Assembly (NCBI GenBank): GCA_016872015.1
Contig: VHBK01000011.1
Coordinates: 1-38,315 of the forward strand
Direction of reading: 5' to 3'
Length of the DNA stretch: 38,315 bases
DNA from: Nitrososphaerota archaeon
GTDB taxonomy: Archaea; Thermoproteota; Nitrososphaeria; Nitrososphaerales; Nitrosopumilaceae
The notes beneath the pieces are model-generated. The model searched no databases, was not told where the DNA came from, and saw only the letters and a program-made list of their open reading frames with translations. Every line of letters starts with the position of its first letter. The stretch's first letter is position 1. A program made the position numbers and the translations under genes. Below are positions 7,782-15,723 of this stretch, piece after piece.

Positions 7782-9044
7782 TTGCATTGGCGTGAAACTT
7801 TACCTGACTGGTATGTAAAAAAATATGGTTACCAACCATGTGTCAACATTGGCACTGCAGGACATGTAGATCACGGCAAAACAACGCTAATCCAGGCACT
7901 GACAGGCCAGTGGACCAGTGTTCACAGCCAAGAACTAAAGCGAGGAATCACTATTCGAGTTGGCTATTCCGATGCGGCATTTTACAAGTGCAAAAAGTGT
8001 GAGGTGCCATTAGGCTATTCCACAACGCCGACCTGTCCTAATTGCGGAAAGGAAAGCGAGCTGTCAAGAGTAGTTAGTTTTGTGGACAGTCCAGGCCACG
8101 AAAGCCTCATGGCAAACATGCTCTCTGGCGCTGCGCTAATGGATGGCGCGTTACTTTTAGTTGCGGCAAATCAAAAGGTCCCGCAACCCCAGACAAAAGA
8201 ACACCTCCTGGCACTGCAAATTCTTGGAATCCAACAAATTGTCATTATTCAAAACAAAGTTGATCTAATATCATACCAGGACGCGACTGCAAACTATGCA
8301 GACATTGTAAAATTTGTCAAGGGAACAAAGGCAGCCAAGTCCCCAATAATTCCAATTTCAGCCCAATCACGACTAAACATTGATGCTCTAATTGGCGCAA
8401 TAGAGGAAACAATCCCAACTCCAACCAGAGCAGAATCCAAAGAGCCAGTAATGCACGTACTAAGATCATTTGATGTAAACAAGCCTGGAACTAAAATCAA
8501 GGACATCAAGGGAGGCGTAATTGGTGGAAGCCTCACACAGGGAACATTCTCAATAGGTGATGAAATCGAGATAAAGCCAGGAATCCTGAACCCCAAAAAG
8601 AACTCTTACGAGCCAATCAGAACTCAAATCATCTCTCTGGGTACTGCCGCAGGAATTGTAGATAATGTAAAGCCTGGAGGCCTAGTGGCAATTGGCACAA
8701 AACTTGATCCGTCAATGACACGAAGTGACTCGTTTGTTGGAAGCGTCATTGGCAAGCCAGAAACATTACCCGATAACGCATCCGATGCACGACTAGAGGT
8801 AAGCCTCTTTGATTCCGCAGTTGGAACAATGAATGACATCAAGGTCTTGCCAATACAGGTAGGAGAGTCACTGCGACTAAACATTGGCACAGCACCTGTC
8901 TTGGCAAAAGTAGCCAAAGTCAAATCAGAGAAAATCGAGGTCCAGTTCAAGCGACCAGTATGCCTCTTTGAGAAAAGCAATGTTGCGCTGAGCCGCAAAA
9001 TAGAGGACAGATGGAGACTAATTGGTGCAGGAATAGTTGGTTAA
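7782..9044 (+). CDS. eif2g: Translation initiation factor aIF2 gamma subunit
   Basis: A 420-residue GTPase that carries initiator Met-tRNA to the 30S subunit as part of aIF2 (alpha, beta, gamma). G1 GHVDHGKT at 27-34, switch I KRGITIRVG at 53-61, G3 DSPGHE at 102-107, G4 NKVD at 158-161. The aIF2 gamma-specific zinc knuckle has Cys70, Cys73, Cys85 and Cys88. Two beta-barrel domains follow, ending RWRLIGAG. The TTG start at 7782 is 27 nt after cttaacat. The 3' end overlaps the PIN gene by 8 nt. The alpha subunit gene is in the same window at 12938-13738; beta is not seen. Confidence 0.97.
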   Translation: MHWRETLPDWYVKKYGYQPCVNIGTAGHVDHGKTTLIQALTGQWTSVHSQELKRGITIRVGYSDAAFYKCKKCEVPLGYSTTPTCPNCGKESELSRVVSFVDSPGHESLMANMLSGAALMDGALLLVAANQKVPQPQTKEHLLALQILGIQQIVIIQNKVDLISYQDATANYADIVKFVKGTKAAKSPIIPISAQSRLNIDALIGAIEETIPTPTRAESKEPVMHVLRSFDVNKPGTKIKDIKGGVIGGSLTQGTFSIGDEIEIKPGILNPKKNSYEPIRTQIISLGTAAGIVDNVKPGGLVAIGTKLDPSMTRSDSFVGSVIGKPETLPDNASDARLEVSLFDSAVGTMNDIKVLPIQVGESLRLNIGTAPVLAKVAKVKSEKIEVQFKRPVCLFEKSNVALSRKIEDRWRLIGAGIVG

Positions 9045-9420
9045 GGTAATATGCGATACGAGCTTTCTAATCCATCTAGCTAATCACAGAATAAAAAATC
9101 TAGCCACACTAGACACCGACATTGGAGAAATCCAGTTTTTGGTGCCAGATATAGTTCTTGCAGAGCTAAAAAATCTTGCAAAAAAAGAGGAAAAAACCAA
9201 AGAGGCAACAAATACCATCCATTACATCAAAAACTGGCAGACAATCAAAATTGGCGGAAGCTTTGCAGACGACTCTATTCTGTATTATGTCAAAGATGTA
9301 GGCGGAGTAATCGCAACAATAGACAAGGCCCTAAAATACAAAATAAAAAACCACGGCGGCTCTGTCATATCTATTGCAAACAACAGAATAGTGCTTGAAG
9401 CCAGCAAAGGTTTAACTTGA
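9037..9420 (+). CDS. PIN-domain protein, Fcf1/Utp23-like
   Basis: A 127-residue PIN-fold nuclease-like protein. The acidic residues expected in a PIN active site are visible: Asp7 in VICDTSFLIHL, Glu43 in DIVLAELKNL, Asp79 near SFADDSIL and Asp96 in ATIDKALK. The compact form resembles the archaeal relatives of Fcf1/Utp23, rRNA-processing PIN proteins often encoded beside aIF2 gamma. TTG start, overlapping eif2g by 8 nt, so it is translationally coupled. No partner antitoxin is visible, which argues against a VapC toxin. A role in rRNA processing is inferred. Confidence 0.8.
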   Translation: MVKVICDTSFLIHLANHRIKNLATLDTDIGEIQFLVPDIVLAELKNLAKKEEKTKEATNTIHYIKNWQTIKIGGSFADDSILYYVKDVGGVIATIDKALKYKIKNHGGSVISIANNRIVLEASKGLT

Positions 9421-9439
9421 TTATTTCAGAATAATACCC

Positions 9440-10093
9440 ATGGAGTACAATGGAGTACAAATCAAGTGGTATGGCCATGACACCTTTACATTATCGTATA
9501 ACAATCTGACTGTCTGCATTGATCCGTACCAGCTAGAAAAAAAAATCAATGCCGATATTGTTCTAGTATCGCACAATCACTTTGATCACCTAAGCAATGA
9601 CGATCTGCAAAAAACATCCACAGAGAAAACCACAATCATTGCAGCAAAGGAATGCCTAGGCCAAATCAAGGCAAAAAGCAATCAGGTAATTGGAATAGAG
9701 CCAGGCGAGGAAAAGACTGTTTTCGACATCAAGATAAGGGCGGTTCCTGCGTACAATCTTGACAAGATAAATCCGCAAACAAACCAGCCGTTTCATCCAA
9801 AGCAGGACAAAAAGGTCGGATTCATCATTACAATTAACAATTCAACGTTTTATCATGCGGGAGACTCTGACTATATTCCTGAAATGAATGAACTTTCACC
9901 AGACGTATTCTTTGTGCCAGTAAGCGGCACATATGTCATGACAGCAAAAGAGGCGGCAAGCTCTGTTCTGGGAGTAAAGCCCAACCTTGCAATACCAATG
10001 CATTATGGAAGCATTGTTGGAAACAAAGATGATGCAGAGTCGTTCAAAAAACTTGTTAGCTCGTGCCAAGTTCAAATACCCACAAAAGAGTAA
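9440..10093 (+). CDS. Metallo-beta-lactamase-fold hydrolase (UPF0173-like)
   Basis: A 217-residue MBL-fold protein. It has the HxHxDH metal motif HNHFDH at 45-50, the later YHAGDSDYI strand with an HAGD metal site, and the C-terminal IPMHYG. The short single-domain layout, starting with IKWYGHDTF, matches the UPF0173 group of predicted zinc hydrolases such as UlaG-like proteins. The substrate cannot be told. ATG start with tttaactt about 25 nt upstream, 19 nt after the PIN gene. No membrane or signal segment. Confidence 0.85.
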   Translation: MEYNGVQIKWYGHDTFTLSYNNLTVCIDPYQLEKKINADIVLVSHNHFDHLSNDDLQKTSTEKTTIIAAKECLGQIKAKSNQVIGIEPGEEKTVFDIKIRAVPAYNLDKINPQTNQPFHPKQDKKVGFIITINNSTFYHAGDSDYIPEMNELSPDVFFVPVSGTYVMTAKEAASSVLGVKPNLAIPMHYGSIVGNKDDAESFKKLVSSCQVQIPTKE

Positions 10094-10098
10094 TAAAC
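10091..10098 (+). promoter_or_regulatory. TATA-like box for the STT3-cyclophilin gene
   Basis: taataaac is centred about 26 nt upstream of the TTG at 10121. This supports that codon as the true, leaderless start. The box overlaps the stop codon of the preceding hydrolase gene. Confidence 0.45.
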
Positions 10099-10120
10099 AC
10101 ACTTTGGGCAAAAAACACAA

Positions 10121-12781
10121 TTGCTTTCTAACAAACGACTTTTCTCTGTAGGTAGCTTTGAGTTTTACCTACATCACTTGCTCATAATTGGCATTTTGTC
10201 ATTATCATTTTCCATATCTGCAATGATCCGAGGCCAGGCAGCTGACTATGGATTTCAGCTAAACGAGTTTGATCCGTATTTCAACTACAGGGCAACCCAG
10301 TTTATAGTAGAAAACGGAATCCCTGCCTATTTTGAATGGCATGACGACATGAGCTGGTATCCATTTGGACGAGATGTTGCAGGCACATCCCAGGTCATGC
10401 TGCATATTACCACTGCAGTGCTTTATGGCGCGTTTGGCGGAGACTTGTATGGGTTTACAATTGTGTTTCCTCTGGTTGTTGGCTCGCTTACCACAATTGT
10501 AGTATTTGCACTTGTCCGGGTAATTGGCGGAACTACAGCCGGCTTGTTTGCGTCCTTGATGTATTCAATATCATTACCAATAATCTCAAGAGGCATGCTT
10601 GGCTGGTTCAAGTCTGAACCATTGGGACTGTTCTATGGATTATTAGCAGTGTATCTGTTTTTGAGTGGAATAAAATCATCTTCGCACAAAATAGCCGCAG
10701 CAAAGCTAGTCGGTGGGGGAATACTCCTTGGCTTTGCGTTTTCGGCGTGGGGCGGAACTGACTTTTTTGTCCTCCCAATAGGACTTTTCATTTTATCATT
10801 ACCGTTTACCAGAAAGGACACCAATTTTCTGAGATGGGCAATACCTCTGTTCATATTGGGCCTGGCGATCTCTCTTGCACCACTTGAAAGGCCAGGTCTT
10901 GGATTCTTTGGCAAGGCAAGTGGACTTTTGATAATCGGTCCGACATTATTCCTGATCGCATCGTCATTTATCCAAAAAATTGCTGGTGAGCAAAAGGCAC
11001 GACGCTACACTGCATTGTTTTTGATTGCAATAATACTTGCCGGAATTGGAATACTTTCTGCAAACGTGTTTGGCCTGCCTAGCTTTAGATACCTTAATGC
11101 AGTAAATCCGTTTTTGACCACACTTGATCCGTTGACTGACTCTGTAGCAGAGCACGCCACAACCACGGTATTTCAGTCATTTTTGTTCAATTCGGTGTTT
11201 ATGATATTTGGAGGAATCGGAATCTGGCTTGTCTTTAAAAATCTCACAAATGACGCAAATCAGCGAAGAGATGTTCAAGTATTTGCACTGATCTTTGGCC
11301 TGCTTGGCGTATACATCAGCTCCGCATTCATCAGACTGGAATTGTTCTCATCTATTGCACTCGTGATATTGGGTTCTATCGGCCTTGCGTTACTAACAAA
11401 AGAAATCTTCAAACCCGCAAGGCAGGAAAGCAAAAAACTAGTCAAATCTCATCCAAAGACAATCAAGATTTCATTTTTGGTTGTAATTACAATATTTCTG
11501 ATCACACCGATGATGGTACCTGCAAGTGCAAACTGGATAAGCGGCGGAAAGGCACCACCAACAATACTAAACGGCGGAAGCAACTACAACATTGCAACAA
11601 GTGACTGGCTTGATGCTATGGACTGGCTTAGAGAAAACACGCCAGATGACGCAGTTGTGGCGTCGTGGTGGGATTATGGTTATTGGATTACGACATTAGG
11701 GGAGAGAAGATCCATAGCAGACAATGCTACTTTGATTGACTGGAGAATAAAGCAGATGGCTCAGGCGTTTTTGAGCACGCCTGACCAAGGATGGAAAATA
11801 CTGCAAGAAATGGACGCTGACTATGTCCTGATTTATGTAGCTGCACAGAAAATCAACACGGAAGATCCTCCACTATTCTTTGTCCAGGGTGGCGGGGATG
11901 AGAGCAAAAAGCAATGGTTTATGAGAATTGGCGGATTTGACACACAAAAATTCCTCTATGATGATGGTGTCAGTTCTACCCCTGAATTTTGGAGCAATAC
12001 ACTACTTGGTAGAATGATTCCATTTACTGTATATGGCTATGTTGACCTTGCAAGCCAGAGACAAGCCGACATTTATGTTTCAGGATTCACACCAGTGTAT
12101 CTTGATGATATCAAGTATCCAAAAGAAGGAAACGGCCCACTAAAGCTAGCATACATGTCTCCTGGCTTCTTCATAAAAGAAACCGGTGCAATCAACGGCG
12201 TTCTGATTTATGAAATAAACAAGAACTATGTACCATCAGAAGCTCCAGCCGCACAGGCCACTACACCAATAGCACCGACTGAAGCCCCAGAATCGACTAA
12301 TCCAATTGCGACAATATTTACAAACTTTGGTGACATTGTAGTTGAGCTAAATCCAGAAATCGCGCCAAACACAGTTGCAAACTTTGTAAAATTAGCCGAC
12401 TCGGAATTCTATGACGGAACACTTTTCCACAGAATCATATCCACATTTGTAATACAGGGAGGAGACCCAAACACAAAGGACCAGCCTCCAGGAACATGGG
12501 GAACTGGCGGACCTGGCTATAGCATAGATGCAGAAATTAGCAATCTCAAGCACACAAAATATGTAGTGTCGATGGCACGCGGAACCGACATTAACAGCGC
12601 AGGATCACAGTTCTTTATCATGACTGGCGATGCTCCATTCTTGGATGGTAAATACACAATATTTGGCAAAGTCATTCAAGGCCAAGAAGTAGTTGACAAA
12701 ATAGCTTCACTGCAAACTGATCTAAATGACAGGCCAGTTGACTTTGAGTCGGCACGAATTAAGAGTATTAGAATTTCCTAG
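10121..12781 (+). CDS. aglB: Oligosaccharyltransferase STT3/AglB fused to a C-terminal cyclophilin
   Basis: An 886-residue protein. Residues 1-470 are the multi-membrane-pass STT3 core, with the first acidic motif EFDPYFNYR (Asp51), a second acidic pair WHDD (Asp75, Asp76) and the external-loop motif SVAEH at 341-345. Residues 470-705 are the extracytoplasmic domain with the sequon-binding WWDYG at 516-520. A 22-residue Ala/Pro/Thr-rich linker (about 707-728) leads to a complete cyclophilin at 728-886: FHRIISTFVIQGGD (Arg771, Phe776, Gln779), SAGSQFFIM and FLDGKYTIFGKV. The enzyme moves lipid-linked glycan to Asn in N-x-S/T; the cyclophilin would isomerise prolyl bonds on the same, outer face. 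TTG start. The frame is unbroken, so this is a true fusion in this sequence. Confidence 0.95.
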   Translation: MLSNKRLFSVGSFEFYLHHLLIIGILSLSFSISAMIRGQAADYGFQLNEFDPYFNYRATQFIVENGIPAYFEWHDDMSWYPFGRDVAGTSQVMLHITTAVLYGAFGGDLYGFTIVFPLVVGSLTTIVVFALVRVIGGTTAGLFASLMYSISLPIISRGMLGWFKSEPLGLFYGLLAVYLFLSGIKSSSHKIAAAKLVGGGILLGFAFSAWGGTDFFVLPIGLFILSLPFTRKDTNFLRWAIPLFILGLAISLAPLERPGLGFFGKASGLLIIGPTLFLIASSFIQKIAGEQKARRYTALFLIAIILAGIGILSANVFGLPSFRYLNAVNPFLTTLDPLTDSVAEHATTTVFQSFLFNSVFMIFGGIGIWLVFKNLTNDANQRRDVQVFALIFGLLGVYISSAFIRLELFSSIALVILGSIGLALLTKEIFKPARQESKKLVKSHPKTIKISFLVVITIFLITPMMVPASANWISGGKAPPTILNGGSNYNIATSDWLDAMDWLRENTPDDAVVASWWDYGYWITTLGERRSIADNATLIDWRIKQMAQAFLSTPDQGWKILQEMDADYVLIYVAAQKINTEDPPLFFVQGGGDESKKQWFMRIGGFDTQKFLYDDGVSSTPEFWSNTLLGRMIPFTVYGYVDLASQRQADIYVSGFTPVYLDDIKYPKEGNGPLKLAYMSPGFFIKETGAINGVLIYEINKNYVPSEAPAAQATTPIAPTEAPESTNPIATIFTNFGDIVVELNPEIAPNTVANFVKLADSEFYDGTLFHRIISTFVIQGGDPNTKDQPPGTWGTGGPGYSIDAEISNLKHTKYVVSMARGTDINSAGSQFFIMTGDAPFLDGKYTIFGKVIQGQEVVDKIASLQTDLNDRPVDFESARIKSIRIS

Positions 12782-12936
12782 TCCCTGAACTTGTTCATTA
12801 TTCTATAGCGAGCATACTTGTCGTCTGGCGAGAATTTAGCGGGATGGGCAGTCACGGTTTTTGCCTGACAGGCGGTACATTCTTCCTTTAGTGTGTATTT
12901 TTTGCATTCTGGGCACTTGCGAAGCTGGAACTTCAA
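12778..12936 (-). CDS. nop10: H/ACA RNP protein Nop10
   Basis: A 52-residue protein on the minus strand. It starts at TTG 12936 with MKFQLRKCPECKKYTLKEEC and ends AKFSPDDKYARYRIMNKFRD. The CPEC and CTAC knuckles and the C-terminal HPAKFSPDDKYARYR are the Nop10 signature. It is a core protein of H/ACA RNPs that guide pseudouridylation of rRNA. It begins one base after the eif2a stop, the usual archaeal pairing. Its stop shares a CTAG with the stop of the convergent STT3-cyclophilin gene. Confidence 0.93.
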   Translation of the reverse strand: MKFQLRKCPECKKYTLKEECTACQAKTVTAHPAKFSPDDKYARYRIMNKFRD

Positions 12937-12937
12937 G

Positions 12938-13738
12938 TTATCCTTCCCGTGTCTTTTTTGATTCTTCTCTGGTAAAGCTAAAGGTGCCGTTGCTTTTTTC
13001 TATGATTTTTTGAATTTTATCCAGAATTGGCTTGAGCATTCTCTCCGCTGTCTTAAAGTCAGGACCTGTGACACTTAGTCTGTATTTTGGCGCGCCAATA
13101 TAGGTCACGGAAATGCTTGATGTCTGATCGCCAATGGAATCCAAGATTGCGTTCTTGATTACTTCAACACCGTTTGATTGGTTGCATGTAAGCTCACAAA
13201 TTCCACGTATCTCTACAGATGGTGGCTTTATCTTGGAGCTTGTCTCTTGTATTGCAGAGGCTGTCTTTTTTGCCAGCTTGAGCTCATCTAATACTCCAAT
13301 TCCCTTTGTTGCCACATCTAAAAATGCGTCATAAACAAAATCGTATTTTGAGAAAATTGCATCTTCTAGCTTTTCAATGTCTTTGTCTGTTAGCCCTGCG
13401 GATGTCTTTACTGCATCTAGTAGTGTTTTTCCTTTTTCAATTCTTTTTACCTCTAGAAGCTTTTTCTTTTGCTGCTCCTTTGATACCTGTTTTAGTGAAA
13501 GATCAATTTCAGATCGTCCTGGATTTACCTTTTTTACCAAAAGGACCTTTTTTTCGCTCTCACGCACAAACTTGCTAACAGAGCGAACCCATCCGGGGGC
13601 AATCTCAGATACATGCAAAAATCCCTGCATATTGTCGTATTCATCAAGTGTTACGTATGCACCATGATCAGTAAGTTTGGTAATTGTTGCAAGAACAATC
13701 TCTCCTATCTCTGGAAGCTCCTGAGTTTGTGTGACCAA
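12938..13738 (-). CDS. eif2a: Translation initiation factor aIF2 alpha subunit
   Basis: A 266-residue aIF2 alpha. The N-terminal S1/OB domain (about 10-85) contains GEIVLATITKLTDHGAYVTL and GFLHVSEIAPGWVRSV. A helical domain and the C-terminal alpha-beta domain (SISVTYIGAPKYRLSVTG) follow. It binds aIF2 gamma and initiator tRNA. TTG start at 13738, with a TATA-like box 26 nt upstream. It is followed directly by nop10, forming a two-gene unit. A lysine-rich insert around 90-115 and the C-terminus KKTREG are ordinary for the family. Confidence 0.96.
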   Translation of the reverse strand: MVTQTQELPEIGEIVLATITKLTDHGAYVTLDEYDNMQGFLHVSEIAPGWVRSVSKFVRESEKKVLLVKKVNPGRSEIDLSLKQVSKEQQKKKLLEVKRIEKGKTLLDAVKTSAGLTDKDIEKLEDAIFSKYDFVYDAFLDVATKGIGVLDELKLAKKTASAIQETSSKIKPPSVEIRGICELTCNQSNGVEVIKNAILDSIGDQTSSISVTYIGAPKYRLSVTGPDFKTAERMLKPILDKIQKIIEKSNGTFSFTREESKKTREG

Positions 13739-13760
13739 TGCAGCTCTGGCTTGGACTACA

Positions 13761-13768
13761 TAATTTAA
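13761..13768 (-). promoter_or_regulatory. TATA-like box for eif2a-nop10
   Basis: taatttaa reads TTAAATTA on the minus strand and is centred about 26 nt from the TTG start of eif2a. It lies in the 36-nt gap after cobA, so the translation genes have their own promoter rather than reading through from the cobalamin gene. Confidence 0.45.
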
Positions 13769-13774
13769 TGTTGT

Positions 13775-14305
13775 CTAAAAGTCAATGCCTTTTTTTGCAC
13801 GAATACCTTTCTGAAATGGATGTTTTATTTCTCGCATCTCAGTTACCAGATCTGCCGCATCAATTATTTGCTGTTTTACATGATTTCCAGTCAGAACCAA
13901 AGTTACTTTTTGTGGTTTGATTTTTATCAAATCCAAAACGTCCCCGACATCAGCTAGTCCTAGATTTACTGCATAGTTGATTTCATCTAGGATTATAATG
14001 TTGTATTTTTCTGAGAGGATTTTTTGTTTGGCGATCTCTAGTGCTTCTTTTGCAATTTTCTGGTGTATTTCTTTTGGGGTCTTGTCATCCAAAATACCAA
14101 CAAAGCCCTTTCCTACTGCTGTCAGCTCAAACTCTGGCTCTAGTCTCTTTGATGAGCTCATCTCGCCATAATGCCAGGATCCTTTGATGAACTGGATCAT
14201 GCAGATGGTATAGTCGTGACCTATTGCTCGAAGCGCCATGCCTAGTGCGGCAGTGGTTTTTCCTTTGCCCTTACCTGTGTATACAATCACAAGACCTTCA
14301 TCCAT
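13775..14305 (-). CDS. cobA: ATP:cob(I)alamin adenosyltransferase (CobA/CobO/BtuR type)
   Basis: A 176-residue P-loop enzyme: YTGKGKGKTTAALGMALRA at 9-27 holds the ATP-binding loop typical of CobA, and NIIILDEINYAVNLGL is the Walker B-like strand followed by the conserved segment. It attaches the 5'-deoxyadenosyl group to the cobalt of corrinoids. ATG start. It is divergent from cbiA across 62 nt, which keeps both cobalamin genes in one regulatory unit. Length matches the family. Confidence 0.95.
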   Translation of the reverse strand: MDEGLVIVYTGKGKGKTTAALGMALRAIGHDYTICMIQFIKGSWHYGEMSSSKRLEPEFELTAVGKGFVGILDDKTPKEIHQKIAKEALEIAKQKILSEKYNIIILDEINYAVNLGLADVGDVLDLIKIKPQKVTLVLTGNHVKQQIIDAADLVTEMREIKHPFQKGIRAKKGIDF

Positions 14306-14367
14306 AATCGAAAAACCATTTTAGGCTAGAAAAAGATTGGTATAGTTCCAATTTTAAGAGATAGAAA

Positions 14368-15723
14368 ATGAAAATCCCCAGAATAGTAATTGCGGGAGCC
14401 ACAAGTGGTGTAGGCAAGACCTCGATTACGTGTTCTATTATTCATGGAATAAAACAAAAGGGATACTCTGTTCAACCATTCAAGGTCGGCCCTGATTATA
14501 TTGATCCGACATATCTTTCCGCAATATCGGGCAATTCTGCAAGAAATCTCGACTCGTGGATAATGGGAGAAGATGCAACACTTGAGAGCTTTGCAAAAAA
14601 TTCCCAATCCGATGTCTCTGTCATTGAGGGGGTAATGGGGTATTATGATGGATTTTCCGGAGCAACAAACCAGTCCAGCACACATCACATTGCAACAATT
14701 CTGGAGTCGCCAGTTATTCTGGTATTAGATGCAAGCAAGACTGCACGTTCTATTGCAGCGACTGCATTAGGCTATGTGAAATTCCATAAAAATTCCAGAA
14801 TTGCGGGCCTAATTCTTAACAAGCTTGGAAGTAAAAAGCACGAAGACATGTGCAGGATAGCACTTGCATCACTAAAAATTCCAATTCTTGGCTGCATTCC
14901 AAAAAATTCTGACTTGTCGCTAGAATCACGACACTTGGGCCTAATTCCTGCAGTAGAACAAGCACACTTAAAGCAAAAAATCACAAAAATAGCAAAGACA
15001 ATTTGTGGAAATATAGACATTGAAAAGATAATCTCTATTGCAAATCGTGTTGGCGTAATATCAAATCCACCAAAGCAAAAAGTGCAAAAATCCAAAACTA
15101 CAATAGCCGTTGCCCTTGATAAATCGTTTAATTTCTATTATTATGATAACTTTGATTCTCTGCGCAGAAATGGCGCAAAAATAGAGTTTTTCAGCCCAAT
15201 TTCTGATGTTTCTCCGCCAGAATGCTCTGGAATTTACATTGGGGGGGGATTTCCAGAGGTGCTAGGCCAGCCACTTGCAAAAAACCAATCAATGAAAAAA
15301 TCAATAAAAAAACTAGCAGAGCAAAACATGCCAATATACGGTGAATGTGGAGGCCTGATGTATCTTACAAAATCAATTGAATATGATTCCAAAAAATATT
15401 CAATGATAGGCCTATTTGATGCCACAACAAGCATGGAAAAGAAAATGACGCTAAACTACACTAGGGCAAACGTAGTTTCAAATTGTGTAATTGCAAAAAA
15501 TGCAACAAGGCTGTTCGGCCATGAATTCCATTATTCAGAGCTAAGCTCAATACCAAAGGACGCTAAATTTGCATATGATCTTTCAATCGGAGTTGGAATC
15601 AAAAACAAAAAAGACGGCCTAACTCAAAATAACGCTCTGGCATCATACATGCACCTTTACTTTGATAGGGCAACACATGCTCAAAACTTTGTAAATAACT
15701 GCGTCAAATTTTCCAGAATCTAG
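14368..15723 (+). CDS. cbiA: Cobyrinic acid a,c-diamide synthase CbiA
   Basis: A 451-residue two-domain enzyme. The N-terminal dethiobiotin-synthetase-like ATPase has GATSGVGKTS at 10-19, VGPDYIDPTYL at 40-50 and EGVMGYYDG. The C-terminal class I-like glutamine amidotransferase has the nucleophile in YGECGGLMYL (Cys327) and IYIGGGFPEV. It amidates the a and c side chains of (cob)yrinate using glutamine and ATP. ATG start with ggtatagt about 25 nt upstream. Its TAG stop lies in a CTAG shared with the convergent cbiC. Length is normal. Confidence 0.96.
   Translation: MKIPRIVIAGATSGVGKTSITCSIIHGIKQKGYSVQPFKVGPDYIDPTYLSAISGNSARNLDSWIMGEDATLESFAKNSQSDVSVIEGVMGYYDGFSGATNQSSTHHIATILESPVILVLDASKTARSIAATALGYVKFHKNSRIAGLILNKLGSKKHEDMCRIALASLKIPILGCIPKNSDLSLESRHLGLIPAVEQAHLKQKITKIAKTICGNIDIEKIISIANRVGVISNPPKQKVQKSKTTIAVALDKSFNFYYYDNFDSLRRNGAKIEFFSPISDVSPPECSGIYIGGGFPEVLGQPLAKNQSMKKSIKKLAEQNMPIYGECGGLMYLTKSIEYDSKKYSMIGLFDATTSMEKKMTLNYTRANVVSNCVIAKNATRLFGHEFHYSELSSIPKDAKFAYDLSIGVGIKNKKDGLTQNNALASYMHLYFDRATHAQNFVNNCVKFSRI

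Follow-up and report, generated by a model that had tools for sequence, protein, structure and literature searches.

Genome analysis of a Nitrososphaerota archaeon (assembly GCA_016872015.1, contig VHBK01000011.1, positions 1 - 38,315; this whole stretch of 38,315 nucleotides is referred to as the window) revealed a gene that encodes an oligosaccharyltransferase (OST) fused to a cyclophilin. Indeed, window 10121 - 12781 (+) is a single frame of 886 codons in which a full STT3/AglB OST is followed by a disordered, Pro/Ala/Thr-rich linker and then by a full cyclophilin (Table 1). A preliminary description of this DNA had claimed one frame with all STT3/AglB motifs and a complete cyclophilin, and translation, profile matches, and fold bear this out. 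The fusion is genuine and no assembly error. Each domain comes from a known family; what may be new is their combination in one chain. We favour, with moderate confidence, the interpretation that this protein is a single-chain OST with a built-in prolyl isomerase, i.e., a foldase tethered to the OST outside the cytoplasm.

The OST part matched the STT3 profile (PF02516) with 92.5 bits (cut-off 24.5). The AglB core domain profile (PF22627) gave a borderline score of 27.2 bits (cut-off 27), no single stretch exceeding this cut-off by itself. The archaeosortase-system OST profile (TIGR04154) gave 108.1 bits against an NCBIfam cut-off of 450, so that the gene was not placed there. The OST fold was confirmed by matching a predicted model, in which about 13 membrane helices were counted by eye in the STT3 part, to OST structures. 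In a Foldseek search, the whole model matched PDB 9n9j best, through STT3A, and each of the 50 entries listed in the structure comparison covers just one of the two parts, either the OST or the cyclophilin. The WWDYG motif of OSTs serves acceptor-sequon recognition, and the class of archaeal AglB and eukaryotic STT3 is presumably GT66. From these enzymes, the window protein differs by its C-terminal cyclophilin on a disordered linker.

The cyclophilin part matched the Pro_isomerase profile (PF00160) with 162.1 bits (cut-off 21.7), and structure matches of the predicted model confirmed the cyclophilin fold. It shares the full domain, the fold, and the catalytic arginine with known cyclophilins, the nearest solved chains being of the PPIL1 type, and differs from them in being tethered to an OST. 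Among 24 aligned fused proteins, Arg771, Ala819, Leu841, and Tyr845 were invariant and Phe776, Gln779, and Phe832 nearly invariant, and the catalytic-site residues align to those of solved cyclophilin chains. We take Arg771, Ala819, Leu841, Phe776, Gln779, and Phe832 to be the cyclophilin catalytic positions, Arg771 presumably being the counterpart of R55 of human cyclophilin A (CypA). Human CypA has a tryptophan at the cyclosporin-binding position. As Phe840 stands opposite tryptophan in four of the five aligned solved chains, this non-defining feature is missing and cyclosporin binding by the fused cyclophilin may be weak.

After residue 473, no segment had a Kyte-Doolittle mean of at least 1.5, and the maximum from residue 698 on was 0.88; hence, the WWDYG motif and the cyclophilin should share one membrane side. 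An outward-facing WWDYG motif is established for the OST family. The cyclophilin is predicted, with strong support from hydropathy, model, and structural match to OSTs, to be extracytoplasmic, on the WWDYG side of the membrane. The topology prediction could have put the isomerase in the cytoplasm; instead, it agrees with the outer-face position previously proposed. The linker stretch aligned to residues 698 - 726 is 18 to 78 residues long in the 24 fused proteins. A glycosylated linker was considered as evidence for location and rejected, as sequons were not clearly enriched over shuffled sequences in most of these proteins; 13 of the 24 had none, and the largest excess (L044) was 10 versus 5.6 in shuffles.

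The fusion recurs in many relatives. Some part of the protein, possibly the cyclophilin alone, was matched in 372 genomes of a 400-genome sample of the class. Among the matches listed, a full-length, one-frame fusion was found in the genus of the window, in other genera of family f1, and in families f3 and f5; family f2 (genus g31) also has one. Within the own genus, 14 of 16 genomes had a listed full-length match, all 14 in one frame without stops, including three single-contig genomes (G003, G025, and G083); G344 had a partial, fused match and G363 was outside the matches listed. A second collection, consisting of the best 80 of 443 relatives, contained 36 loci fused in one frame, 38 with an STT3 end inside the contig, five cut by a contig end, and one with the cyclophilin in another frame. 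Fused loci made up 2/2 of Nitrosotenuis, 5/5 of Nitrosotalea, 3/3 of Nitrososphaera, and 2/2 of Nitrosocosmicus in this collection. They made up 0/15 of Nitrosopumilus (three of which were cut and are uninformative), 0/3 of Nitrosopelagicus, 0/2 of Cenarchaeum, 0/2 of Nitrosarchaeum, and 0/1 of Nitrosopolaris. Among its 45 loci without a genus, 24 were fused, 18 were not, two were cut, and one had the cyclophilin in another frame; bins L156, L182, and L190 carry bacterial names at odds with their gene content. The preliminary description had suggested mapping STT3-cyclophilin proteins on a tree and had named a stop and start between the domains in related genomes as the sign of a sequencing error. 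Intact fusions were retrieved in f1, f2, f3, and f5 and set on an STT3 tree, and the fused relatives show one unbroken frame across both domains. A sequencing or assembly error that joined two genes has thus a negligible probability: frame breaks in the cyclophilin of two relatives (L057 and L059) are all that speaks for it, whereas the unbroken frames of the own genus and of the second collection come from independent genomes that already refute a joining error, and the cyclophilin evolves like coding sequence.

Downstream of the unfused STT3 genes, no convincing cyclophilin remnant was found in 26 loci (best expectation value (E) 1.4). Some unfused forms (L048, L054, L180, and L184) keep a low-complexity tail, which would fit truncation. 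Outside the group, no STT3-cyclophilin fusion was seen among the matches listed for a phylum sample of 398 genomes, 107 of which had a cyclophilin; the two longest outside-group frames listed (602 and 646 aa) combine another secreted-looking protein with a cyclophilin and were rejected as STT3 fusions. The unfused named genera are mostly marine, Nitrosarchaeum being partly non-marine. A simple habitat rule was discarded, as Nitrosarchaeum and Nitrosopolaris are unfused and phylogeny confounds the match between marine and unfused. An OST match was absent from G067, G077, G080, and G099 (f2, g23) and from G124 and G147 (f1, g15), so that the OST seems to have been lost altogether in two lineages; no cyclophilin was found in G067, G077, G080, G124, and G099, the five of these six genomes that were searched.

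To place the fusion in time, trees were built from both of its parts and from a neighbouring gene. The STT3 tree (81 chosen rows, 43 fused and 38 unfused; L057, with a frame break in the cyclophilin, was scored as unfused and L059, with a later break, as fused) united f1, f2, f3, and f5 in one clade of 63 rows, which from its named loci can be read as the ammonia oxidisers. Fused versus unfused rows amounted to 28 plus the window versus 18 in f1 and 12 versus 2 in f3, the single rows of f2 and f5 were fused, and none of the 18 rows from other families was. Unfused f1 genera nest among fused ones, and parsimony required nine changes of fusion state. The tree of the neighbouring aIF2-gamma gene (66 rows, 31 fused, no outgroup, midpoint-drawn) required five. 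In both trees, fused forms stand on both sides of the deepest ammonia-oxidiser split, which fits best with one early fusion and repeated losses. The most likely history, as judged from these trees, would be one fusion in the ancestor of the ammonia-oxidising archaea and several losses, including those in the Nitrosopumilus and Nitrosopelagicus lineages. Two or three independent cyclophilin-OST fusions, which would be compatible with every functional interpretation, are a less probable history that nevertheless deserves some weight. In the cyclophilin-domain tree (84 rows), the fused f1 domains form one clade (100/98) and those of f3 lack resolution, while the fused f2 and f5 domains fall with non-fused ones (96/91), and six changes were needed for the fused domains. 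Against independent fusions, this alignment has just 162 columns, a single origin of the fused cyclophilins was not rejected (approximately unbiased test, p-AU 0.364; constrained tree, 44 rows), the domain order is identical throughout, and fused forms flank the deepest split in the two other trees. In genus g24, a separate secreted-looking protein of 470 aa (L112:568-1977) carries a cyclophilin that nests among the OST-fused ones of that genus, as though a copy of the fused domain had ended up on a different protein.

Selection was assessed by the ratio of nonsynonymous to synonymous substitution rates (dN/dS) in eight congener pairs, several of which were near dS saturation. The ratio was 0.021 - 0.058 for the cyclophilin (seven pairs with estimable dS), 0.059 - 0.114 for the STT3 part (five pairs), and 0.21 - 0.66 for the linker (seven pairs), and it was lower for the cyclophilin than for the OST part in all five pairs in which both were estimable, narrowly so in one. 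These ratios indicate strong purifying selection on the cyclophilin; the fusion is old and kept by selection. Together with the variable linker length, the ratios are as would be expected of a flexibly tethered functional domain. The cyclophilins of relatives outside the group had an N-terminal hydrophobic segment in 12 of 13 fetched cases and are probably membrane-anchored and outward-facing. Those of the ammonia oxidisers comprise small ones without such a segment and ten large ones with one. It may be conjectured that the fused domain derives from a membrane-anchored, outward-facing cyclophilin, the OST having taken over from the cyclophilin's own anchor.

The mechanism that we favour involves a coupling of glycosylation and folding in place. 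The OST would glycosylate Asn-X-Ser/Thr sites of surface-layer (S-layer) proteins and other secreted proteins during their emergence, while the tethered cyclophilin would catalyse prolyl cis-trans steps of the same emerging chains and perhaps also hold their unfolded segments. This action would be general along the chain and not confined to prolines adjacent to sequons. A comparison of two species bears on it. According to a glycoproteomics study of 2025, the S-layer of Nitrososphaera viennensis is N-glycosylated and no glycosylation was detected in Nitrosopumilus piranensis, each having one OST gene (PMC12153357). The OST frame of the former is fused (928 aa; L217) and that of the latter unfused (723 aa; L218), the species assignment being inferred. 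The OST protein abundances reported there were 0.044, 0.031, and 0.034 in Ns. viennensis and 0.004, 0.002, and 0.007 in Np. piranensis (PMC12153357), which means that a fused OST has been detected as a protein in a glycosylating species. Genome G132, taken as Ns. viennensis, contained an S-layer-like protein of 1199 residues with a sequon at N1181, and genome G048, taken as Np. piranensis, a protein of 1736 residues with sequons at N70, N435, and N1734, all named in that study. Our scan gave 7 and 9 potential sites, respectively, versus 6 and 8 there; the reported N1721 was missing from the scan.

Several points weigh against such a coupled enzyme. The contrast above sets one species against one (n = 1 each) and is confounded by all other differences between them. 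The authors of that study propose that the missing glycosylation may be due to a low abundance of the OST, and they refer to a suggestion that N. maritimus, a species of an unfused genus, has N-glycosylation (PMC12153357). Prolines were not enriched near sequons: within 10 residues of the seven sequons of the Ns. viennensis S-layer protein (1199 aa), four were seen and 7.1 expected, and for the nine sequons of the Np. piranensis protein (1736 aa) eight were seen versus 7.6 expected. In Ns. viennensis, the most nearby prolines (two) occurred at N1181, reported as unglycosylated (PMC12153357). An action of the cyclophilin on prolines beside sequons is unsupported in the S-layer proteins scanned, and the earlier proposal that the isomerase could act on sequon loops has so far found no support. 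This is weak evidence, from one protein, against the local version only, and it leaves a general folding or holding role untouched. Furthermore, the fused f2 and f5 domains group with non-fused ones, and many relatives keep the OST without the fusion, as the nine parsimony changes reflect, which makes the cyclophilin dispensable for the OST. Finally, a published activity test of either domain in an ammonia oxidiser was not found, and the authors who placed FKBP11 at the mammalian OST argue that its role there is that of an adaptor rather than an isomerase (PMC12804085).

Two other functional interpretations were considered. Firstly, the OST may do no more than anchor a generally acting extracytoplasmic cyclophilin in the membrane, with glycosylation uncoupled. 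This is unlikely, and it draws on the N-terminal anchors of the probably outward-facing outside-group cyclophilins, the repeated loss of the cyclophilin while the OST stayed, the second, secreted-looking cyclophilin in the genome of the window, and the missing sequon-proline signal. Retention of the same OST partner in f1, f2, f3, and f5 and the lower dN/dS of the fused cyclophilin compared with the OST part weigh against it to some extent. Secondly, and with a slightly smaller chance still, the cyclophilin may be a non-catalytic adaptor that docks substrates, the Sec translocon, or an S-layer chaperone at the OST, like FKBP11, whose nominal active site is buried at the OST-A translocon and which is interpreted as an adaptor (PMC12804085). 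The catalytic-site residues are, however, retained at very low dN/dS, which is not required of a mere scaffold.

Known systems offer partial parallels to the proposed foldase at the OST. Ost3/Ost6 (TUSC3/MAGT1) are thioredoxin-like OST subunits thought to hold acceptor chains open; they likewise attach a folding-enzyme domain to the OST, but through redox chemistry and as a separate subunit, whereas the window protein would add proline isomerisation in one chain. The closest analogue is FKBP11, a member of a prolyl-isomerase family, which at the mammalian OST-A translocon sits next to STT3 on the lumenal side (PMC12804085). Unlike the cyclophilin of the fusion, which is covalently part of the OST, it is an FKBP and is recruited as a separate protein. 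The preliminary description was right that the two activities are on separate proteins in eukaryotes, but FKBP11 at OST-A provides a precedent for their juxtaposition. Similarly, the ammonia-oxidising archaeon Nitrosopumilus maritimus has a prolyl isomerase on the outer face of its membrane, the parvulin NmPin, which has been proposed to fold S-layer proteins (PMC4922055); it differs in being a separate small protein, and the OST of that genus was unfused in the loci analysed here. No description of an OST-cyclophilin fusion was found among the results listed in searches of open-licence full texts; domain-architecture databases probably contain it. A paper on archaeal prolyl isomerases describes, in its accessible part, some multi-domain archaeal cyclophilins with an N-terminal isomerase and does not mention STT3 or oligosaccharyl there (PMC8530231). 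Likewise, the accessible part of the glycoproteomics paper (PMC12153357) and a paper on the origins of N-glycosylation pathways (PMC4973528) mention neither isomerase nor cyclophilin, and the available portions of three genome papers (PMC5767755, PMC5797428, and PMC4836417) contain nothing on the OST.

In window 7782 - 15723, the gene order is aIF2-gamma, PIN, hydrolase, and OST(-cyclophilin), followed by aIF2-alpha and cobA on the facing strand. This order recurs in many f1 loci, and many relatives that are not ammonia oxidisers still retain the OST / aIF2-alpha neighbourhood. The hydrolase was not seen at the locus in unfused f1 loci. Genome-wide, 12 of 19 fused f1 genomes contained a close homologue and none of 30 unfused ones did; among the latter, a single distant match occurred (G239, E 3e-7). 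A functional coupling of hydrolase and fusion was ruled out, as the hydrolase adjoins unfused STT3 in family f3 (L048, L049, L184, and L201) and a homologue is present in all six genomes without a detected OST; the pattern is partly lineage loss.

Other cyclophilin proteins were encountered as well. The second cyclophilin of the own genome (L002:1381-2949, on another contig) has a signal-like N-terminus, a PsbP-like domain after the cyclophilin, and a hydrophobic segment at the C-terminus. A relative of genus g7 has a secreted-looking frame of 923 aa (L216:1892-4660) that starts with a cyclophilin, followed by what by eye are sugar-dehydrogenase-like and DsbA-like domains. In family f47, which does not belong to the ammonia oxidisers, a solute-binding-like protein with a C-terminal cyclophilin was recognised by eye (L214:3933-5738 and L215:1180-3117) and is probably a further extracytoplasmic cyclophilin fusion.

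Table 1. Features of the OST-cyclophilin gene and its upstream neighbour in the window
Feature	Position	Strand	Basis or remark
Whole gene, OST (STT3/AglB)-cyclophilin fusion	10121..12781	+	886 aa, TTG start, stop included; intact orthologues
STT3 membrane domain, residues 1-473	10121..11539	+	Pfam STT3 at residues 47-328; hydropathy; helices in model
EFDP, residues 49-52, first acidic OST motif	10265..10276	+	Translation; E49, F50, D51, and P52 invariant in 24 aligned fused proteins
SVAEH, residues 341-345	11141..11155	+	Translation; invariant in 24 aligned fused proteins
STT3 outer-face globular domain, residues 474-706	11540..12238	+	Model; matches to OST structures
WWDYG, residues 516-520, acceptor-sequon recognition motif	11666..11680	+	Translation; invariant in 24/24 fused proteins
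Flexible linker, residues 707-727	12239..12301	+	Predicted local distance difference test score (pLDDT) <50 at 707-724; variable length; dN/dS 0.21-0.66
Cyclophilin domain, residues 728-886	12302..12778	+	Pfam Pro_isomerase at 731-874; cyclophilin fold; dN/dS 0.02-0.06
Arg771, catalytic Arg of cyclophilins	12431..12433	+	FHRI motif; invariant in 24/24 fused proteins; aligned to solved cyclophilins
GSQFF, residues 828-832, cyclophilin active-site strand	12602..12616	+	Translation; conservation; alignment to solved chains
Metallo-beta-lactamase-fold hydrolase (PF13483)	9440..10093		27 bases upstream of the OST gene

In a wider and more speculative proposal, which is possible and on balance doubtful, the ammonia-oxidising archaea would have begun with an enzyme that both glycosylates and folds, its dismantling in Nitrosopumilus would have gone with weaker or lost S-layer N-glycosylation, and archaea and mammals would have independently placed proteins of prolyl-isomerase families at the OST. 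The fusion has a counterpart in mammals, where FKBP11 was recently located at the OST-A translocon, and it constitutes a concrete, gene-level difference between two ammonia oxidisers, one reported to glycosylate its S-layer and one not seen to do so. If the favoured interpretation of a tethered foldase is true, a single gene and a point mutation in it would suffice to test how the folding of a chain is coordinated with its N-glycosylation, a question of long standing.

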